64,000 nt of DNA from Halobaculum gomorrense (lineage in GTDB: Archaea; Halobacteriota; Halobacteria; Halobacteriales; Haloferacaceae). A program made the translations under genes and the position numbers. The notes under the pieces are model-generated. The model searched no databases. It was not told where the DNA came from and was given only the letters and a program-made list of their open reading frames with translations. Location of the stretch: the NCBI RefSeq assembly GCF_900129775.1, contig NZ_FQWV01000003.1:310001-374000 (forward strand), in the 5' to 3' direction. Every line of letters starts with the position of its first letter. Position 1 is the first letter of the stretch. This document shows, piece by piece, positions 12,972 through 22,450 of this stretch.

Positions 12972-14366
12972 TCACAGCCCCCACAGGTGGAGTCGATACG
13001 CGCCGTGGCCCGCCGCGGCACCGTCGTGATACGTCACTGGTTCTTCGACGGCTGCGACGGTCGATACGGTCGCATCGAGCGCAACAGCCGTCGACACTCC
13101 CGCTGTCGCCCGCTTCCTCACCGCTCCGTCATCGATGTCGACCACGCGGACGCCGTGGACATCGGGGTCGCGGTCGCGGAAGTGTTGTGCGACCGGGATC
13201 GCGAGTCGTCCCGCCCGTGCGTCGACGTGGTGGGCGAAGCCGCCGACGTCGGCCTGCCATCTCCGGGTGCCGTCGTGGGCGAGTCCGACTGCTGTGTGCT
13301 CTGCGGGGTGGCGTGCTGCGGTCTCGCGCCCCTCCTCCGGGAAGGTGTTCCCGTGGACGAACACGACGCGGTCCTCGGTCGCGACCACGTGGTTCGGGTA
13401 GGCGTACACACGGTCGGTGCCCCCCTCGGGCACGCCGCACTCGATGGTAGCGCCCGCATCGAGCATCGCCGTCACCTGTCCGTCCCGGTCAAGGAGGTAG
13501 CCGTGTCTGTCGGCGTGGCTCGCGACGGCGTACCCGTCCGGCGTGAGCGCGACATCGCCGACGGACCGGTCGGTATCGGTGGCGTCTTCGGCGGCACCGC
13601 CTGCGTCTCGTCGCGGGTCCCATCGGAGGTCGACGGCGCCGGTTGCCGCATCGAGAACGACCAGTCCGTCGTCGTGGGCGGGGGGCTCTGGACACCGGTT
13701 GTACGCGACGGCGAGCCGACTCCCGTCGGTCCCGAGGGCGACGGGCGACGCGCGGGCGTTGTGGCGCCACGCGACCGATCCGCTGGGGTCGACGGCGTAG
13801 ACGACGCTCTCGAATCGGCGATCCGAGCCGTCCGCGTCGCCGCCCTCGGTGCGGCGCTCGTACCGACGAGCGGCCGCGTACGCGCGGCCGTCGGCCGTCG
13901 CCAGCGCCGCGACGAACGGATACCGGAACCGCGTCTCCTCGACCGGACTCCCGATGTCGGCAGCGGCGTCGATGCGCCACCGCTCGGTCCCGTCGGCGTC
14001 GACGAGGCGGACGAGTCCGCGCGAGCCACGCGTCCCGACCAGAACGCCGCCGTCGAACGGCGTCGCCGTGACGACCGGTTCTGACCCCGTGAGTCGCCAG
14101 CGTGGCTCCGCCTGGGTGGAATCTGCTCCGTCGTCACCGGGGTCGCTCGCAGGAGTCGACGCCAAGGCGGACGGATCGACTCCGAGGAGGTCACCGCTCG
14201 CGGTCCCCACGACGACGAGGTCGTCCAGGACCGCCACTGCCGAGCGGCGGCCGCGCTGGCGGGACCCGCAGGGGTCGATCTCACCGAGGGAGGCGACGGC
14301 GTGGTCGTCTGCCGGGCGCGTGCCGCTCGGACGACCGGCCGCCTCACTCCTCGACGGGGAAGGCAT
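12972..14366 (-). CDS. PQQ/WD-like beta-propeller protein of the cobalamin locus
   Basis: A 464-aa acidic protein with repeated blades of the type ...VVVGTASGDLLGVD..., GVLVGTRGSRGLVRLVDADG and VVYAVDPSGSVAWRH, typical of PQQ-like (BamB-like) propellers. There are no quinoprotein-dehydrogenase residues that I can name and no signal peptide, so a cytoplasmic binding or scaffold role is likely. The start ATG at 14366 lies 23 bp inside the DUF3209 gene and is the first Met in frame; longer frames upstream are shadows. Its place at the end of the cbi operon suggests that it serves corrin or cobalt handling, but the biochemical role is unknown. Confidence 0.7.
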   Translation of the reverse strand: MPSPSRSEAAGRPSGTRPADDHAVASLGEIDPCGSRQRGRRSAVAVLDDLVVVGTASGDLLGVDPSALASTPASDPGDDGADSTQAEPRWRLTGSEPVVTATPFDGGVLVGTRGSRGLVRLVDADGTERWRIDAAADIGSPVEETRFRYPFVAALATADGRAYAAARRYERRTEGGDADGSDRRFESVVYAVDPSGSVAWRHNARASPVALGTDGSRLAVAYNRCPEPPAHDDGLVVLDAATGAVDLRWDPRRDAGGAAEDATDTDRSVGDVALTPDGYAVASHADRHGYLLDRDGQVTAMLDAGATIECGVPEGGTDRVYAYPNHVVATEDRVVFVHGNTFPEEGRETAARHPAEHTAVGLAHDGTRRWQADVGGFAHHVDARAGRLAIPVAQHFRDRDPDVHGVRVVDIDDGAVRKRATAGVSTAVALDATVSTVAAVEEPVTYHDGAAAGHGAYRLHLWGL

Positions 14367-14715
14367 CGTGCAGGTCGTGGTGTGTCTCGCCGAGGCCCTC
14401 CAGCAGCCCCTCGCCATGAGACGCGAGCCGGGCGAGGCTCCGCTCGGCGCCGCGAACGGCGACGAGTCGACCCCTGACGTAGTTGGCCTCGGGGTCGTCG
14501 TCGTCGAGCGTCGCGACCTCCTCCTCGAGGTCGACGAGCGCGGCGTCGAGGTGTCGCCGGAGTTGATCGAGCGTCTGTGCGGTCGCGAGCCCTTCGATGG
14601 GGCCCTGAAGCTCGCCCTCAAGCTCCGCTTCCGCGTGCTCGCGGGCGGCGCGGTCGTCGGTTCCGAGGACGTTCAGCAGGCCGAGTCGTAGGGCTTCGAG
14701 TTCGAGGCAGCTCAT
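14344..14715 (-). CDS. DUF3209 family protein
   Basis: A 123-aa helical acidic protein beginning MSCLELEALRLGLLNVLGTD, with LRRHLDAALVDLEEEVATLD further on. I recognise this as DUF3209, a small family found beside cobalamin genes in haloarchaea. It has one cysteine (Cys3) near the N-terminus and no membrane segment. It starts one base after the cbiX stop codon and overlaps the propeller gene by 23 bp, so it is part of the same transcript. Function is unknown; a chaperone or accessory factor for the CbiX step is an inference from position only. Confidence 0.8.
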   Translation of the reverse strand: MSCLELEALRLGLLNVLGTDDRAAREHAEAELEGELQGPIEGLATAQTLDQLRRHLDAALVDLEEEVATLDDDDPEANYVRGRLVAVRGAERSLARLASHGEGLLEGLGETHHDLHDAFPVEE

Positions 14716-14716
14716 G

Positions 14717-15946
14717 TCACTGGAGTGTATCGTGGACGAGGTCGGAGACGATTCGCTCGCGGTCGAGATGCGAGGAGACGATGCGGTCGGCGTCGTCGTC
14801 GTCGACGTCGCCGTACCAGACGCCGTCCGGATAGACGGCGACGATGGGGCCGTCGCCGCACTGGTCGAGACAGGAGGTCCGGGTGACGCGCGCGTCGCAG
14901 GCGTCGGAGTCGCGGACGGCTTGTCGGAGCCGTTCGAGCACGGCGGGCGATCCGCCGGCGGCGCACGTCTGGTTCGTGCAGACGGCGACGTGGTGGGCGG
15001 GCGCGTCGTGGCTGTGCGGGTCGTCGTCGACGGCCTCGCGGTCGGCGTGAGTCGCTTGGTGGGTCAGCGCGCGCAGCATCGCCCGCGCGCCACCCTCGTC
15101 GGCCTCGTAGCCGTCGAGGTCCACCTTGTACTTGCAGGTGTCACACGACATCTCGACGCTGCCCGTGCGGGCCTCTTGCCACCGGTCGGAGAGCACGTCG
15201 AGCAGGCGCGGGTCGGTGCCGAGCGGGTCGCCGCAGGCGGCGTCGACGTAGGGATACTCCTCGTCGAAGTCGGCGGCACCCTCGCGGATGCGACCCGTGA
15301 GCACGCCGTCGCCGAGCATGTACGGGAGCACGACCACCGCGTCGGGGCGGGTGCGAGCGACGTCGTGGAGCGCCTCGTCGAGCAGCGGTTCGGTCACGCC
15401 GATGAACGCCGTCTCGACGCGGTCGAACGCGCGGCCTTCGTACAGGAGCCGCGACAGTTTGTGCACGTCCGCATTGGAGTCCGGGTCCGAAGAGCCGCGC
15501 GCACACAGGACGACGCTCACCTCGTCGGTCTCCCGGTCGACGCCGAGGTCGGCCTCGACCGCCCGCGCCCGGGCGTCGAGCAGGTCGAGGATCGCGGGGT
15601 GGACGCCGAGATGTGCGCCGTTGTCGATCCGCAGGTCGGGGTGGGCCGCGCGCGCCTGCTCGATCGCCAGCGGCACGTCGTTTTTCACGTGGCTGGCGGC
15701 GAACAGCGACAGGTGGACGACCGAGACGCGCGAGACGGCGGTCGCCAGCCCCGCGATGGCCTCGTCGATCGCCGGCTGGGCCAGTTCGATGAACGCCGCG
15801 TCCACCGGGACGCCGAGGCGCCGTTCGAGGTCGGCCGCCAACTCTCGGACCTGTTCGTTGGACTTCTCGCGACGCGAGCCGTGACCCACCAGCAGGACGG
15901 CCTCGTCGTCGAACGCCGCGGCACCGCCGGCCGTCTCGCTACTCAT
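14717..15946 (-). CDS. cbiX: CbiX sirohydrochlorin cobaltochelatase fused to [2Fe-2S] ferredoxin domain
   Basis: A 409-aa protein with two CbiX-type halves. The first is LLVGHGSRREKSNEQ at residue ~18; the second is VVLCARGSSDPDSNAD with VVLPYMLGDG. These insert Co2+ into sirohydrochlorin at the entry of the early-cobalt pathway. After a CDTCKYK segment and a His/Asp linker, the C-terminal ~90 residues form a thioredoxin-like [2Fe-2S] domain: VCTNQTC followed by TSCLDQCGDGP. ATG at 15946 overlaps the upstream gene by 8 bp; the longer upstream frame is not coding in this frame. The Fe-S domain may bind or sense the corrin redox state, but no mechanism is shown by the sequence. Confidence 0.88.
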   Translation of the reverse strand: MSSETAGGAAAFDDEAVLLVGHGSRREKSNEQVRELAADLERRLGVPVDAAFIELAQPAIDEAIAGLATAVSRVSVVHLSLFAASHVKNDVPLAIEQARAAHPDLRIDNGAHLGVHPAILDLLDARARAVEADLGVDRETDEVSVVLCARGSSDPDSNADVHKLSRLLYEGRAFDRVETAFIGVTEPLLDEALHDVARTRPDAVVVLPYMLGDGVLTGRIREGAADFDEEYPYVDAACGDPLGTDPRLLDVLSDRWQEARTGSVEMSCDTCKYKVDLDGYEADEGGARAMLRALTHQATHADREAVDDDPHSHDAPAHHVAVCTNQTCAAGGSPAVLERLRQAVRDSDACDARVTRTSCLDQCGDGPIVAVYPDGVWYGDVDDDDADRIVSSHLDRERIVSDLVHDTLQ

Positions 15947-16631
15947 CGCCACCTCCGCGGACCCGGCGGATGCTCGACTCGATCTTCTGGCGTCGCTGGG
16001 GCGCGAACAGGCCGCTGTCGTCGACGCCGTCGTACAGCCACTCCCCGAGCGCCGGGCCGGCGTCGTCGGCGACGCCGAACCAGTAGCCGCCGGAGGAGGT
16101 CTGGTTGACGCCGCCGTACGGCGCGTCGACGACCACCGCGTCGAGATGATTTTGAACGGCTTCCAACAGCGCCCGGTCGTCGTGGACGACCGAGATGCCG
16201 ACCGCGTTGGCATCCGACTTGTAGCAGACGGTTCCACACCCCTCGACGATCCCCCGAAGGAGTTCACGCCGGTGCGCGGTGAGCGCGTCGAAGCGGTAGC
16301 CGCCCGTCTCGCCGGCCGCCGGCAGGCCGAACGCGGCGGCGGCCTGCCGGGCGACCGGCGTCGTCGCGCGGACGGTGAACTCGTCGCTGGTTCGCATCAC
16401 TGCCGTGTTGTGGGCGTACTCGCGTTCGGTGACGCGCCGGTCGCGGTCGATATCGGTAGCGCCGAACAGCGCCGCGAGCCGGTCGGCGGCCGTCGCCTCG
16501 CCGGCCCGAACGACGACCGTGTCGCCGTCAACGTGACCGTCGCCGGCGACCCGGCCCCACAGATACGCCGCCTCGGGTGACGCCTCGACCAGTGAGTCGG
16601 GGGCATCGAGACCCGAGATAGCGTCGCTCAC
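15939..16631 (-). CDS. Domesticated LAGLIDADG-like protein in cobalamin operon
   Basis: A 230-aa protein with two copies of a LAGLIDADG-type helix: AYLWGRVAGDGHV near residue 22 and RRELLRGIVEGCGTV near 127. Homing endonucleases carry an acidic residue before the last Gly. The first copy keeps it (GDG) but the second has Cys (GCG), so DNA cleavage is doubtful. Spacing between the copies suits a single-chain two-repeat fold. Unlike homing genes it is not in an intein or intron; it overlaps the ferredoxin gene (GTGA, start GTG 16631) and cbiX by 8 bp. The likely role is in cobalamin synthesis or regulation; annotation pipelines usually label it a cobalamin protein. The function is unproven. Confidence 0.65.
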   Translation of the reverse strand: MSDAISGLDAPDSLVEASPEAAYLWGRVAGDGHVDGDTVVVRAGEATAADRLAALFGATDIDRDRRVTEREYAHNTAVMRTSDEFTVRATTPVARQAAAAFGLPAAGETGGYRFDALTAHRRELLRGIVEGCGTVCYKSDANAVGISVVHDDRALLEAVQNHLDAVVVDAPYGGVNQTSSGGYWFGVADDAGPALGEWLYDGVDDSGLFAPQRRQKIESSIRRVRGGGDE

Positions 16632-16888
16632 GGCTCCCCCTCCGCGTCGACGGTGATGGCGTCGAGCGGACACGCCGCGGCCGCCTGTCGGGCGTCGGCC
16701 TCGCCGCCGTCTCCCCGCTCGAACGTCGCCGAGACCCGTGTCTCCGACCGGCTGGTCGCCACCGCCGTCGTCGGGTCGAGCGCGGCGAGTCCGTCTTCGG
16801 CCTCGACGAACCGATCGTCGCGGACCAGGCACGCGAACACGCCGTCGCAGGCCTCGCGGTCGACCGTGACTGTGTAGCGGTCGCTCAT
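16628..16888 (-). CDS. Small ferredoxin (3Fe-4S type)
   Basis: An 86-aa acidic protein. The N-terminal cysteines sit in CDGVFAC (Cys14, Cys20), and a third cysteine lies in AACPLDAI near the C-terminus. The CX5C plus CP layout with only three ligands fits a single [3Fe-4S] cluster ferredoxin rather than a bacterial 2[4Fe-4S] one. It would hand electrons to a reductive or ring-contracting step of cobalamin synthesis. ATG at 16888 shares one base with the cbiH1 stop (TGATG), and its own stop overlaps the next gene. Confidence 0.8.
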   Translation of the reverse strand: MSDRYTVTVDREACDGVFACLVRDDRFVEAEDGLAALDPTTAVATSRSETRVSATFERGDGGEADARQAAAACPLDAITVDAEGEP

Positions 16889-17913
16889 CAGTAGTCGTAC
16901 TTGCTCTCGTAGCCGCGCGGGGTGACCATCCGGCCGTCCCACACGTACGTGTCTTCGTTGCCGACGACGACGGTCGTGGTCATGTCCACCAGGTCCGTCT
17001 CGCCGTACGACTCCAACTCGCCGAGGGTGGTGGTCTCGACGGCCTCGTCGTCGCGCCCGGCGCCGTGGACGATCCCGACTGGCGTGTCGTCGTCGCGGTG
17101 CTCGCGGAGGATCGCACACGCCGTCTCCCAGTTCTCCCTGCGCTTGCGGCTCCACGGGTTGTAGATCGCGATCGTGAACCCCTCGCCGGCGACGGCGTGC
17201 AGACGGGACTCGATCTCGTCCATGGGCGTGAGGTGATCGGAGAGGGACACTGACACCGAGTCGTTCACCAGCGGCGCGCCCAAACGGGCGCCGCACGACT
17301 GGGCCGCGGGGACGCCGGGGACGACCTCGAAGTCGACCATCGACGCGGTCGCGCCCTTCGACTCGAGGATCTCCAGCGTGAGGCCCGCCAGCGCGTACAC
17401 GTTCGGGTCGCCCGAGCCGACGATCGCCACGTCGTTGCCGGCAAGCGCGCGGTCGATCGCCTCCTCCGTGCGCGACACCTCGCCGCACATCGGGGTGTCG
17501 TACAGTTCCTCCGCCTGCTCGGTGATCTCGTCGGGGATGAGGTCGATGTAGGTGGTGTAGCCGACGATGTGTCCGGCCTCCGCCAGCGTCGATTTCGCTC
17601 GCGCGGTCATGCCGTCGGCGTGGCCAGGGCCGAGACCAACGGCGACTAAGCGCCCGGGGTCGGCGTCGAAGTCGTCAACGGCGGCCCCGACCTTCTCGTC
17701 GGTCGTCGACGAGGAGCCGCCGCAAGCCGACGATCCCGAGGAATCCGACGCGTCCGCGTCGGTCGAGCCGGCCGTGCACCCGCCGGAACTCGATTCCGTG
17801 GCGGTGCCGCCGTCGGTCTTCGCACCGCAGGTTGTCGTCTCGGTGTCCGCGCTGTTCGTCTCGTCCGTCGACCCGCCGCAGGTCGTGTCTGTGGTATCGG
17901 TGGTGTCGCTCAT
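16888..17913 (-). CDS. cbiH: Precorrin-3B C17-methyltransferase CbiH, Cys-rich N-terminal extension
   Basis: The catalytic part (~residues 85-341) has the SAM-methylase loops VGLGPGHADGMT, VGSGDPNVYALAG and VVPGVPAAQSCGARLG, as in CbiH/CobJ, which methylates C17 and promotes ring contraction. Residues 1-75 are unusual: a Ser/Thr/Asp-rich tail with four cysteines (12, 29, 46, 64), each in a CG or CT context, at intervals of 17-18 residues. That looks like a metal-binding or redox tail. The gene precedes the ferredoxin and follows the second cbiH by 11 bp. Start ATG at 17913. Confidence 0.88.
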   Translation of the reverse strand: MSDTTDTTDTTCGGSTDETNSADTETTTCGAKTDGGTATESSSGGCTAGSTDADASDSSGSSACGGSSSTTDEKVGAAVDDFDADPGRLVAVGLGPGHADGMTARAKSTLAEAGHIVGYTTYIDLIPDEITEQAEELYDTPMCGEVSRTEEAIDRALAGNDVAIVGSGDPNVYALAGLTLEILESKGATASMVDFEVVPGVPAAQSCGARLGAPLVNDSVSVSLSDHLTPMDEIESRLHAVAGEGFTIAIYNPWSRKRRENWETACAILREHRDDDTPVGIVHGAGRDDEAVETTTLGELESYGETDLVDMTTTVVVGNEDTYVWDGRMVTPRGYESKYDY

Positions 17914-21990: not shown

Positions 21991-22031
21991 CATATAACAA
22001 TTTGGATTGTTCTAATTCAAGTGTGATTGTT
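21991..22031 (-). promoter_or_regulatory. Promoter and candidate operator of the cbiT operon
   Basis: A TATA-like GTTATATG (minus strand) lies at 21991-21998. It overlaps a 16-bp inverted repeat, AACAATTTGGATTGTT on the plus strand at 21996-22011, with 6-bp arms. A third half-site ATTGTT follows at 22026-22031, exactly 20 bp (two helical turns) from the second arm. This layout fits a dimeric repressor binding over the promoter, for example one responding to cobalt or cobalamin; the regulator is not in the window. Confidence 0.5.
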
Positions 22032-22090: not shown

Positions 22091-22450
22091 CTATCGTGGC
22101 TCCACCTCACTTGTCGTCGATTCGATGCCGAGTCGTGACGCGTCGGTGCCGAACTCCTCCGCCAAGAGCGGTGGGACGTCTTCTGGAGTAACGTCAGAGT
22201 ACCAGCGTCCGCGCGGGTGGATCGCCACCGCGGTGCCGTCTGCGCTACACAGCCCCAGACAGCTCGTCTCCGCGACGTGCACCCGCGACCAGAACACACC
22301 GCGGTCGCGGAGCCACGACGTGACGGTTTCCAGAACCGCGTCGCCGTGTGCCTCCGCGCAGGCGGCGTACTCGGAGTCGCGGGCGTTCGTGCAGACGAGC
22401 ACGTGGTCGGTGAACCCGTTCTCGTACACGTCTGAGGTGCGCTCGCGCAT
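22091..22450 (-). CDS. Thioredoxin-like [2Fe-2S] ferredoxin
   Basis: A 119-aa protein with cysteines 20, 31, 64 and 68 (VCTN, CAEAHG, TSCLGLCSADG). This is the CX10CX32CX3C spacing of the thioredoxin-like [2Fe-2S] ferredoxins, the same domain type that is fused to CbiX at 14717. It also has AIHPRGRWYSDVTPEDV, a close parallel of the CbiX fusion tail. ATG at 22450 shares one base with the cbtA stop, so it belongs to cbtB-cbtA-fdx. It probably acts in cobalt or corrin redox chemistry in the cytoplasm. Confidence 0.82.
   Translation of the reverse strand: MRERTSDVYENGFTDHVLVCTNARDSEYAACAEAHGDAVLETVTSWLRDRGVFWSRVHVAETSCLGLCSADGTAVAIHPRGRWYSDVTPEDVPPLLAEEFGTDASRLGIESTTSEVEPR

Follow-up and report, generated by a model that had tools for sequence, protein, structure and literature searches.

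The window, a 64,000-nucleotide stretch of the Halobaculum gomorrense genome, carries a haloarchaeal cobalt-early cobalamin operon with the gene order cbiT-cbiL-cbiF-cbiG-cbiH1-cbiH2-ferredoxin-LAG-cbiX-DUF3209, where LAG denotes the protein that is the focus of this analysis. The cobalt transport genes cbtB/cbtA are located upstream of the cbi operon, and a beta-propeller gene, chlID, cobN, and cbiC are located beyond it. The features that bear on LAG are as follows:

14344-14715, minus strand: DUF3209 gene
14717-15946, minus strand: cbiX, the downstream partner of LAG, encoding two CbiX domains, an MSCDTC motif, and a C-terminal 2Fe-2S thioredoxin-like domain
15939-16631, minus strand: domesticated LAGLIDADG-fold protein (LAG), an HVO_B0055-type cobalamin cluster protein of 230 aa with a GTG start
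16224-16238, minus strand: Cys132-Gly-Thr-Val-Cys136 of LAG, with Cys132 at the catalytic Asp position
16239-16289, minus strand: second LAGLIDADG-type helix of LAG, residues 115-131 (...LLRGIVEG)
16539-16577, minus strand: first LAGLIDADG-type helix of LAG, residues 19-31 (...AYLWGRVAGD), ending at the first catalytic acid position, Asp31
16628-16888, minus strand: small ferredoxin (Fer4_15 by Pfam), the upstream partner of LAG
16888-17913, minus strand: cbiH2 (cobJ/cbiH family) with a Cys-rich N-terminal extension
21993-22018, minus strand: conserved palindromic promoter motif upstream of cbiT, found with or without a LAG gene

The first ~80 residues of CbiH2 in LAG-bearing genomes are of low complexity and Cys-rich, with repeated CGGS/CGAS units, and a metal or Fe-S role for this extension is possible. 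A 119-aa protein encoded between cbtA and cbiT (22091-22450, minus strand) resembles, by eye, the C-terminal 2Fe-2S domain of CbiX (CTN...ETSCLGLCSADG); a Pfam scan of this protein gave no match.

The LAG gene starts with a GTG at 16629-16631 and ends with a TAG stop at 15939-15941. The GTGA at its start overlaps the ferredoxin stop by 4 nt, while the cbiX ATG lies within its final codons (ATGAGTAG), an overlap of 8 nt, and a GGAGG-like ribosome-binding site precedes both the LAG start and the cbiX start. A preliminary description of this DNA had reported an open reading frame with two LAGLIDADG-like motifs (GRVAGDGHV and GIVEGCGTV), translationally coupled to ferredoxin and cbiX. The reading frame and both motifs are present in the sequence, and the overlapping starts and stops at both ends of the gene, together with the ribosome-binding sites, indicate that the coupling claim was correct.

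By synteny, LAG is the same gene as HVO_B0055 of Haloferax (Table 3 of PMC8305020), which is located between the ferredoxin HVO_B0056 and cbiX1 HVO_B0054 (Pfeiffer and Dyall-Smith, 2021; PMC8305020). HVO_B0055 is one of four cobalamin cluster genes given in that article as ‘function unassigned’, and the word LAGLIDADG does not occur in its main text. Our literature searches likewise found no link between LAGLIDADG and cobalamin clusters.

The Pfam LAGLIDADG_3 model (PF14528) matched LAG at E = 0.0011 with 19.6 bits, which is under the curated cut-off of 22.5, and it matched 20 of 24 family members at E ≤ 1 (best E = 2.7e-5). Four intein-borne LAGLIDADG_3 matches above the cut-off were identified in the same genome, and hhalign aligned the LAG family with these four endonuclease domains over 145 columns (E = 6e-4, although with a probability of only 28.6%) and in register across both motifs, pairing AYLWGRVAGDG with AWLLGMFVAEG and RGIVEGCGTV with RGFIAGDGSE. 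Sequence searches of the PDB, conducted with the single protein and with the family profile, returned chance matches only, and no family for LAG was recovered from NCBIfam.

Structure prediction was conducted with AlphaFold on two different orthologs as target, yielding a pLDDT of 83.9 and pTM of 0.85 from a 15-ortholog alignment, and a pLDDT of 88.7 and pTM of 0.88 in a second job with the Haloferax ortholog placed first. Both models show two alpha-beta-beta-alpha-beta-beta-alpha repeats with the LAGLIDADG-type helices at the interface. All Foldseek matches of the two models against the PDB at E ≤ 0.001 were LAGLIDADG proteins (33 of 33 and 49 of 49), including I-Tsp061I, I-DmoI, I-SceI, VMA inteins, the bI3 maturase, and WhiA; many of the top viral matches were likewise named homing endonucleases, LAGLIDADG-like proteins, or intein proteins. 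Pfam, hhalign, and AlphaFold combined with Foldseek thus agree with the LAGLIDADG-type assignment made initially, and neither model lacks the helices on which it was based. These predictions make it nearly certain that LAG has a single-chain, two-repeat LAGLIDADG fold, descended from a homing-endonuclease-type ancestor.

The residues that equip this fold for DNA cleavage are not maintained in LAG. In an alignment of 64 homologs, which leaves out the most divergent ortholog (from genome G011), the second catalytic position is Cys132 in 62 sequences, as the preliminary description had noticed for the single protein, and Cys136 is invariant (64 of 64). The first catalytic position is likewise not conserved, comprising D in 36 of 62 sequences, G in 11, S in 9, A in 3, and N in 3. 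Other positions are invariant (Arg126, Glu130, Ser147, Asp152, Ser180, Arg213, and Lys216) or nearly so (Arg70 and His74). The loss of the nuclease residues is near certain and, because Cys132 occupies the second position in 62 of 64 homologs and Asp31 is retained in only 36 of 62, cleavage of DNA by LAG is very unlikely.

The taxonomic distribution of LAG closely follows that of CbiG. A LAG gene was identified in 82 of 195 genomes of the order, a number that reflects 84 raw matches less two taken as spurious (G156 and G171; E about 5e-4); the G156 match lies in a threonyl-tRNA synthetase frame and was rejected as an ortholog, and G171 was assumed to be likewise. A family profile search of 393 genomes of the phylum revealed no ortholog outside the order. 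CbiG was detected in 87 of the 195 genomes and DUF3209 in 83; LAG and CbiG occur together in 81 genomes (Fisher p about 2e-46, uncorrected for shared ancestry), and LAG co-occurs with DUF3209 in 82 of the 83 genomes that encode the latter.

LAG is located between ferredoxin and cbiX in nearly all clusters examined, with the exception of those in G011 and G060. In G011, the LAG ortholog is the most divergent (29% identical) and is positioned away from the cbi cluster, where it is accompanied by a rhodanese gene and flanked by a pair of cation-efflux genes of the CDF type (L093 8444-11453). In G060, the cbi cluster is divided between two places (L095 and L096), with the ferredoxin in the part away from LAG. 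Side observations in these genomes include an apparent second, weaker cbiG copy in G060 and, in G011, a long ORF (L093 13361-15442) that by eye resembles a dCTP deaminase split by an intein. Close pairs of LAG genes have dN/dS values of about 0.13-0.4, indicating purifying selection.

A dead LAGLIDADG protein has, in short, become a permanent member of the cobalt-early cobalamin operon of haloarchaea. The initial proposal of a LAGLIDADG-type fold domesticated inside a cobalamin operon is borne out by the fold, the dead site, the fixed locus, the co-inheritance with CbiG, and the purifying selection. The same observations bear on whether LAG could be a homing endonuclease, active now or until recently, that sits in the operon by chance. 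Such an enzyme would share the fold, and motif 1 is intact in LAG itself; however, active homing endonucleases have two catalytic acids and an intron, intein, or scattered mobile location, neither of which applies to LAG. The second acid is replaced by Cys in 62 of 64 homologs and the first is lost in 26 of 62, the gene is stand-alone and outside any intein, and it occupies a fixed locus, is coupled in frame to its neighbors, is almost always found together with CbiG, and evolves under purifying selection. We regard this explanation as extremely improbable.

Five genomes that encode CbiG (G010, G012, G039, G185, and G112) gave no LAG match with the family profile; a sixth, G121, is incomplete, so that absence there says little. 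G010, G012, G039, and G185 retain cbiT-L-F-G-H1-H2-X, and the cluster in G010 and in the three genomes of genus g23 is compact, with neither ferredoxin nor DUF3209. The Cys-rich CbiH2 extension is missing or reduced in the compact clusters that lack LAG. In G012, G039, G185, and G010, CbiX has no 2Fe-2S domain and contains 12-40 His after MSCxxC, whereas in those LAG-bearing loci where CbiX could be read the 2Fe-2S domain is present and only 5-9 His follow MSCDTC. G112 differs in that it retains the ferredoxin, the 2Fe-2S CbiX, DUF3209, and the Cys-rich CbiH2, such that LAG is the only part of the module that is missing. Exactly in the LAG slot, and overlapping the ferredoxin stop, this genome encodes a second, His-tailed CbiX, after which comes the usual 2Fe-2S copy (L091 12202-14387). 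CbiX from genus g46 (G583 and G631) is similar to that of the His-tailed lineages.

The anticorrelation between the His tail and LAG comes from only three lineages, one of which is a single genome, so that the pattern could stem from common ancestry or from loss of the module. Moreover, the minimal clusters also lack ferredoxin, DUF3209, and the Cys-rich CbiH2 tail, and the effect is therefore not specific to LAG, except in G112. The His-tailed cobaltochelatase CbiX-L (Bacillus megaterium type) is a possible functional counterpart of LAG, as a His-tailed CbiX stands in the place of LAG in haloarchaea; in CbiX-L, the tail is on the chelatase itself and the fold is unrelated to that of LAG. According to a review (PMC7689651), cobalt insertion does not require the tail of bacterial CbiX-L, which bears an Fe-S center together with a His-rich segment and for which a function in metal storage and delivery was proposed.

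LAGLIDADG proteins that have been put to use by their hosts are known for work on DNA or RNA, as exemplified by WhiA, HO, and maturases. The main rival of a cobalt-handling function is that LAG is a WhiA-like regulator of the cobalamin operon, acting at the transcription or RNA level and sensing cobalt or a corrinoid via its cysteines. LAGLIDADG folds bind nucleic acids and WhiA is among the nearest solved structures; the C-terminal helix of LAG is basic, with invariant Arg213 and Lys216, which is unusual for an acidic haloarchaeal proteome; and a conserved palindromic motif is present at the operon promoter. This last feature, AACAAT-N4-ATTGTT (21996-22011), belongs to a longer motif, TA-N3-CAA-N-C-N3-ATTGTT, that precedes cbiT and has a single mismatch-free occurrence in the genome. 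The motif was detected in 24 of 24 upstream regions, and none of the 300 shuffles made of each region scored as high as the region itself. However, the motif is kept in all five LAG-less genomes checked (G010, G012, G039, G185, and G112), whose upstream regions score lower than those used to build the motif matrix, and also in G011 and G060, where LAG is outside the cbiT cluster. The motif is read by some factor or is part of the core promoter, and LAG is not needed for its conservation.

The overall charge of LAG is also about as acidic as that of the neighboring enzymes (family mean of -0.08 per residue), and neither a Pfam scan nor the models revealed an HTH domain in LAG, in which the second repeat is followed by little more than one long C-terminal helix. 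In WhiA, it is the HTH and not the LAGLIDADG domain that provides site-specific DNA binding, and the degenerate LAGLIDADG domain alone gave no DNA footprint (PMC3781837). Because the domain that binds DNA in WhiA is absent from LAG, the case for a regulator is weaker than it first appears. The preliminary description had suggested a DNA-binding regulator acting at the AACAAT operator; with the motif recognizable in five genomes that lack LAG, and with no HTH in LAG, we rejected this operator as a LAG binding site. Regulation by LAG in the broader sense is a serious contender but unlikely.

The alternative offered alongside it, a new enzyme, has been weakened. In its most specific form, LAG would fill a gap in the haloarchaeal pathway by conducting a CbiD-type C1 methylation or a CbiJ-type reduction. 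A search of the 195 genomes of the order revealed neither CbiD nor CbiJ, the neighboring ferredoxin could act as an electron source, and unassigned cluster genes have been proposed as gap fillers (PMC8305020). Yet G010, G012, G039, and G185 keep the ring-synthesis cluster without LAG, ferredoxin, or DUF3209, and these genomes as well as G112, all CbiG-positive, also lack CbiD and CbiJ. It is because LAG-less lineages do without CbiD and CbiJ, too, that LAG is unlikely to be the missing enzyme, and no methyltransferase or reductase was found among the significant structural matches. We consider such a role improbable.

The explanation that we favor, on the basis of genomic context and at slightly less than an even chance, is that LAG is a domesticated accessory protein that handles cobalt together with CbiX and the ferredoxin. 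LAG would no longer cut DNA and would act as an accessory to the early cobalt step. Cobalt or a cobalt-tetrapyrrole would most likely bind at the former catalytic-metal site, now lined by Cys132 and Cys136, and LAG may hold the metal or pass it to CbiX, the cobaltochelatase, in its Fe-S form, and the ferredoxin may keep the metal or the cysteines reduced. In this role, LAG would do the job of the His-rich CbiX tail found in lineages that lack it. The His-poor CbiX that accompanies LAG, the exchange in the LAG slot of G112, and the CDF neighbors in G011 are consistent with a metal role. Counting against it, all characterized LAGLIDADG proteins, to our knowledge, act on nucleic acids or, as in the case of the WhiA domain, are not known to do anything else. 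His150, a candidate further ligand, is missing in some LAG members. The bolder proposal that LAG acts on no nucleic acid at all, and that cysteines at the old metal center now bind cobalt or a cobalt-tetrapyrrole in the service of haloarchaeal cobalamin synthesis, interchangeably with the His-rich CbiX tail, is plausible but decidedly tentative.

Among known systems, the transcription factor WhiA/DUF199 is among the top structural matches and has, like LAG, a degenerate, catalytically dead LAGLIDADG domain retained by its host; however, WhiA/DUF199 is bacterial and has a C-terminal HTH, whereas LAG is archaeal, lacks an HTH, is fixed in a metabolic operon, and carries two conserved Cys where the active site used to be. 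The archaeal monomeric homing endonucleases I-Tsp061I and I-DmoI, which provided the best and frequent fold matches (E = 1.1e-6 for I-Tsp061I), are also single chains with two pseudo-symmetric LAGLIDADG repeats, but LAG differs from them in being outside introns, in having lost the catalytic acids, and in being fixed in an operon. The intein-borne LAGLIDADG_3 endonucleases of this genome retain the acid at the second position (..AGDG..), whereas LAG has lost it and is not part of an intein.

A dead LAGLIDADG protein locked into an archaeal vitamin operon would represent a new kind of co-option, and the fold provides an initial structural clue to one of the four haloarchaeal B12 cluster genes that have no assigned function. 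The trade between LAG and a His-tailed CbiX provides a testable link to the delivery of cobalt to the chelatase in aerobic, high-salt cells. Collectively, the conservation of LAG beside the cobalt-inserting enzyme in most B12-making relatives suggests that an old gene parasite has been put to a new use, one that is probably related to cobalt.
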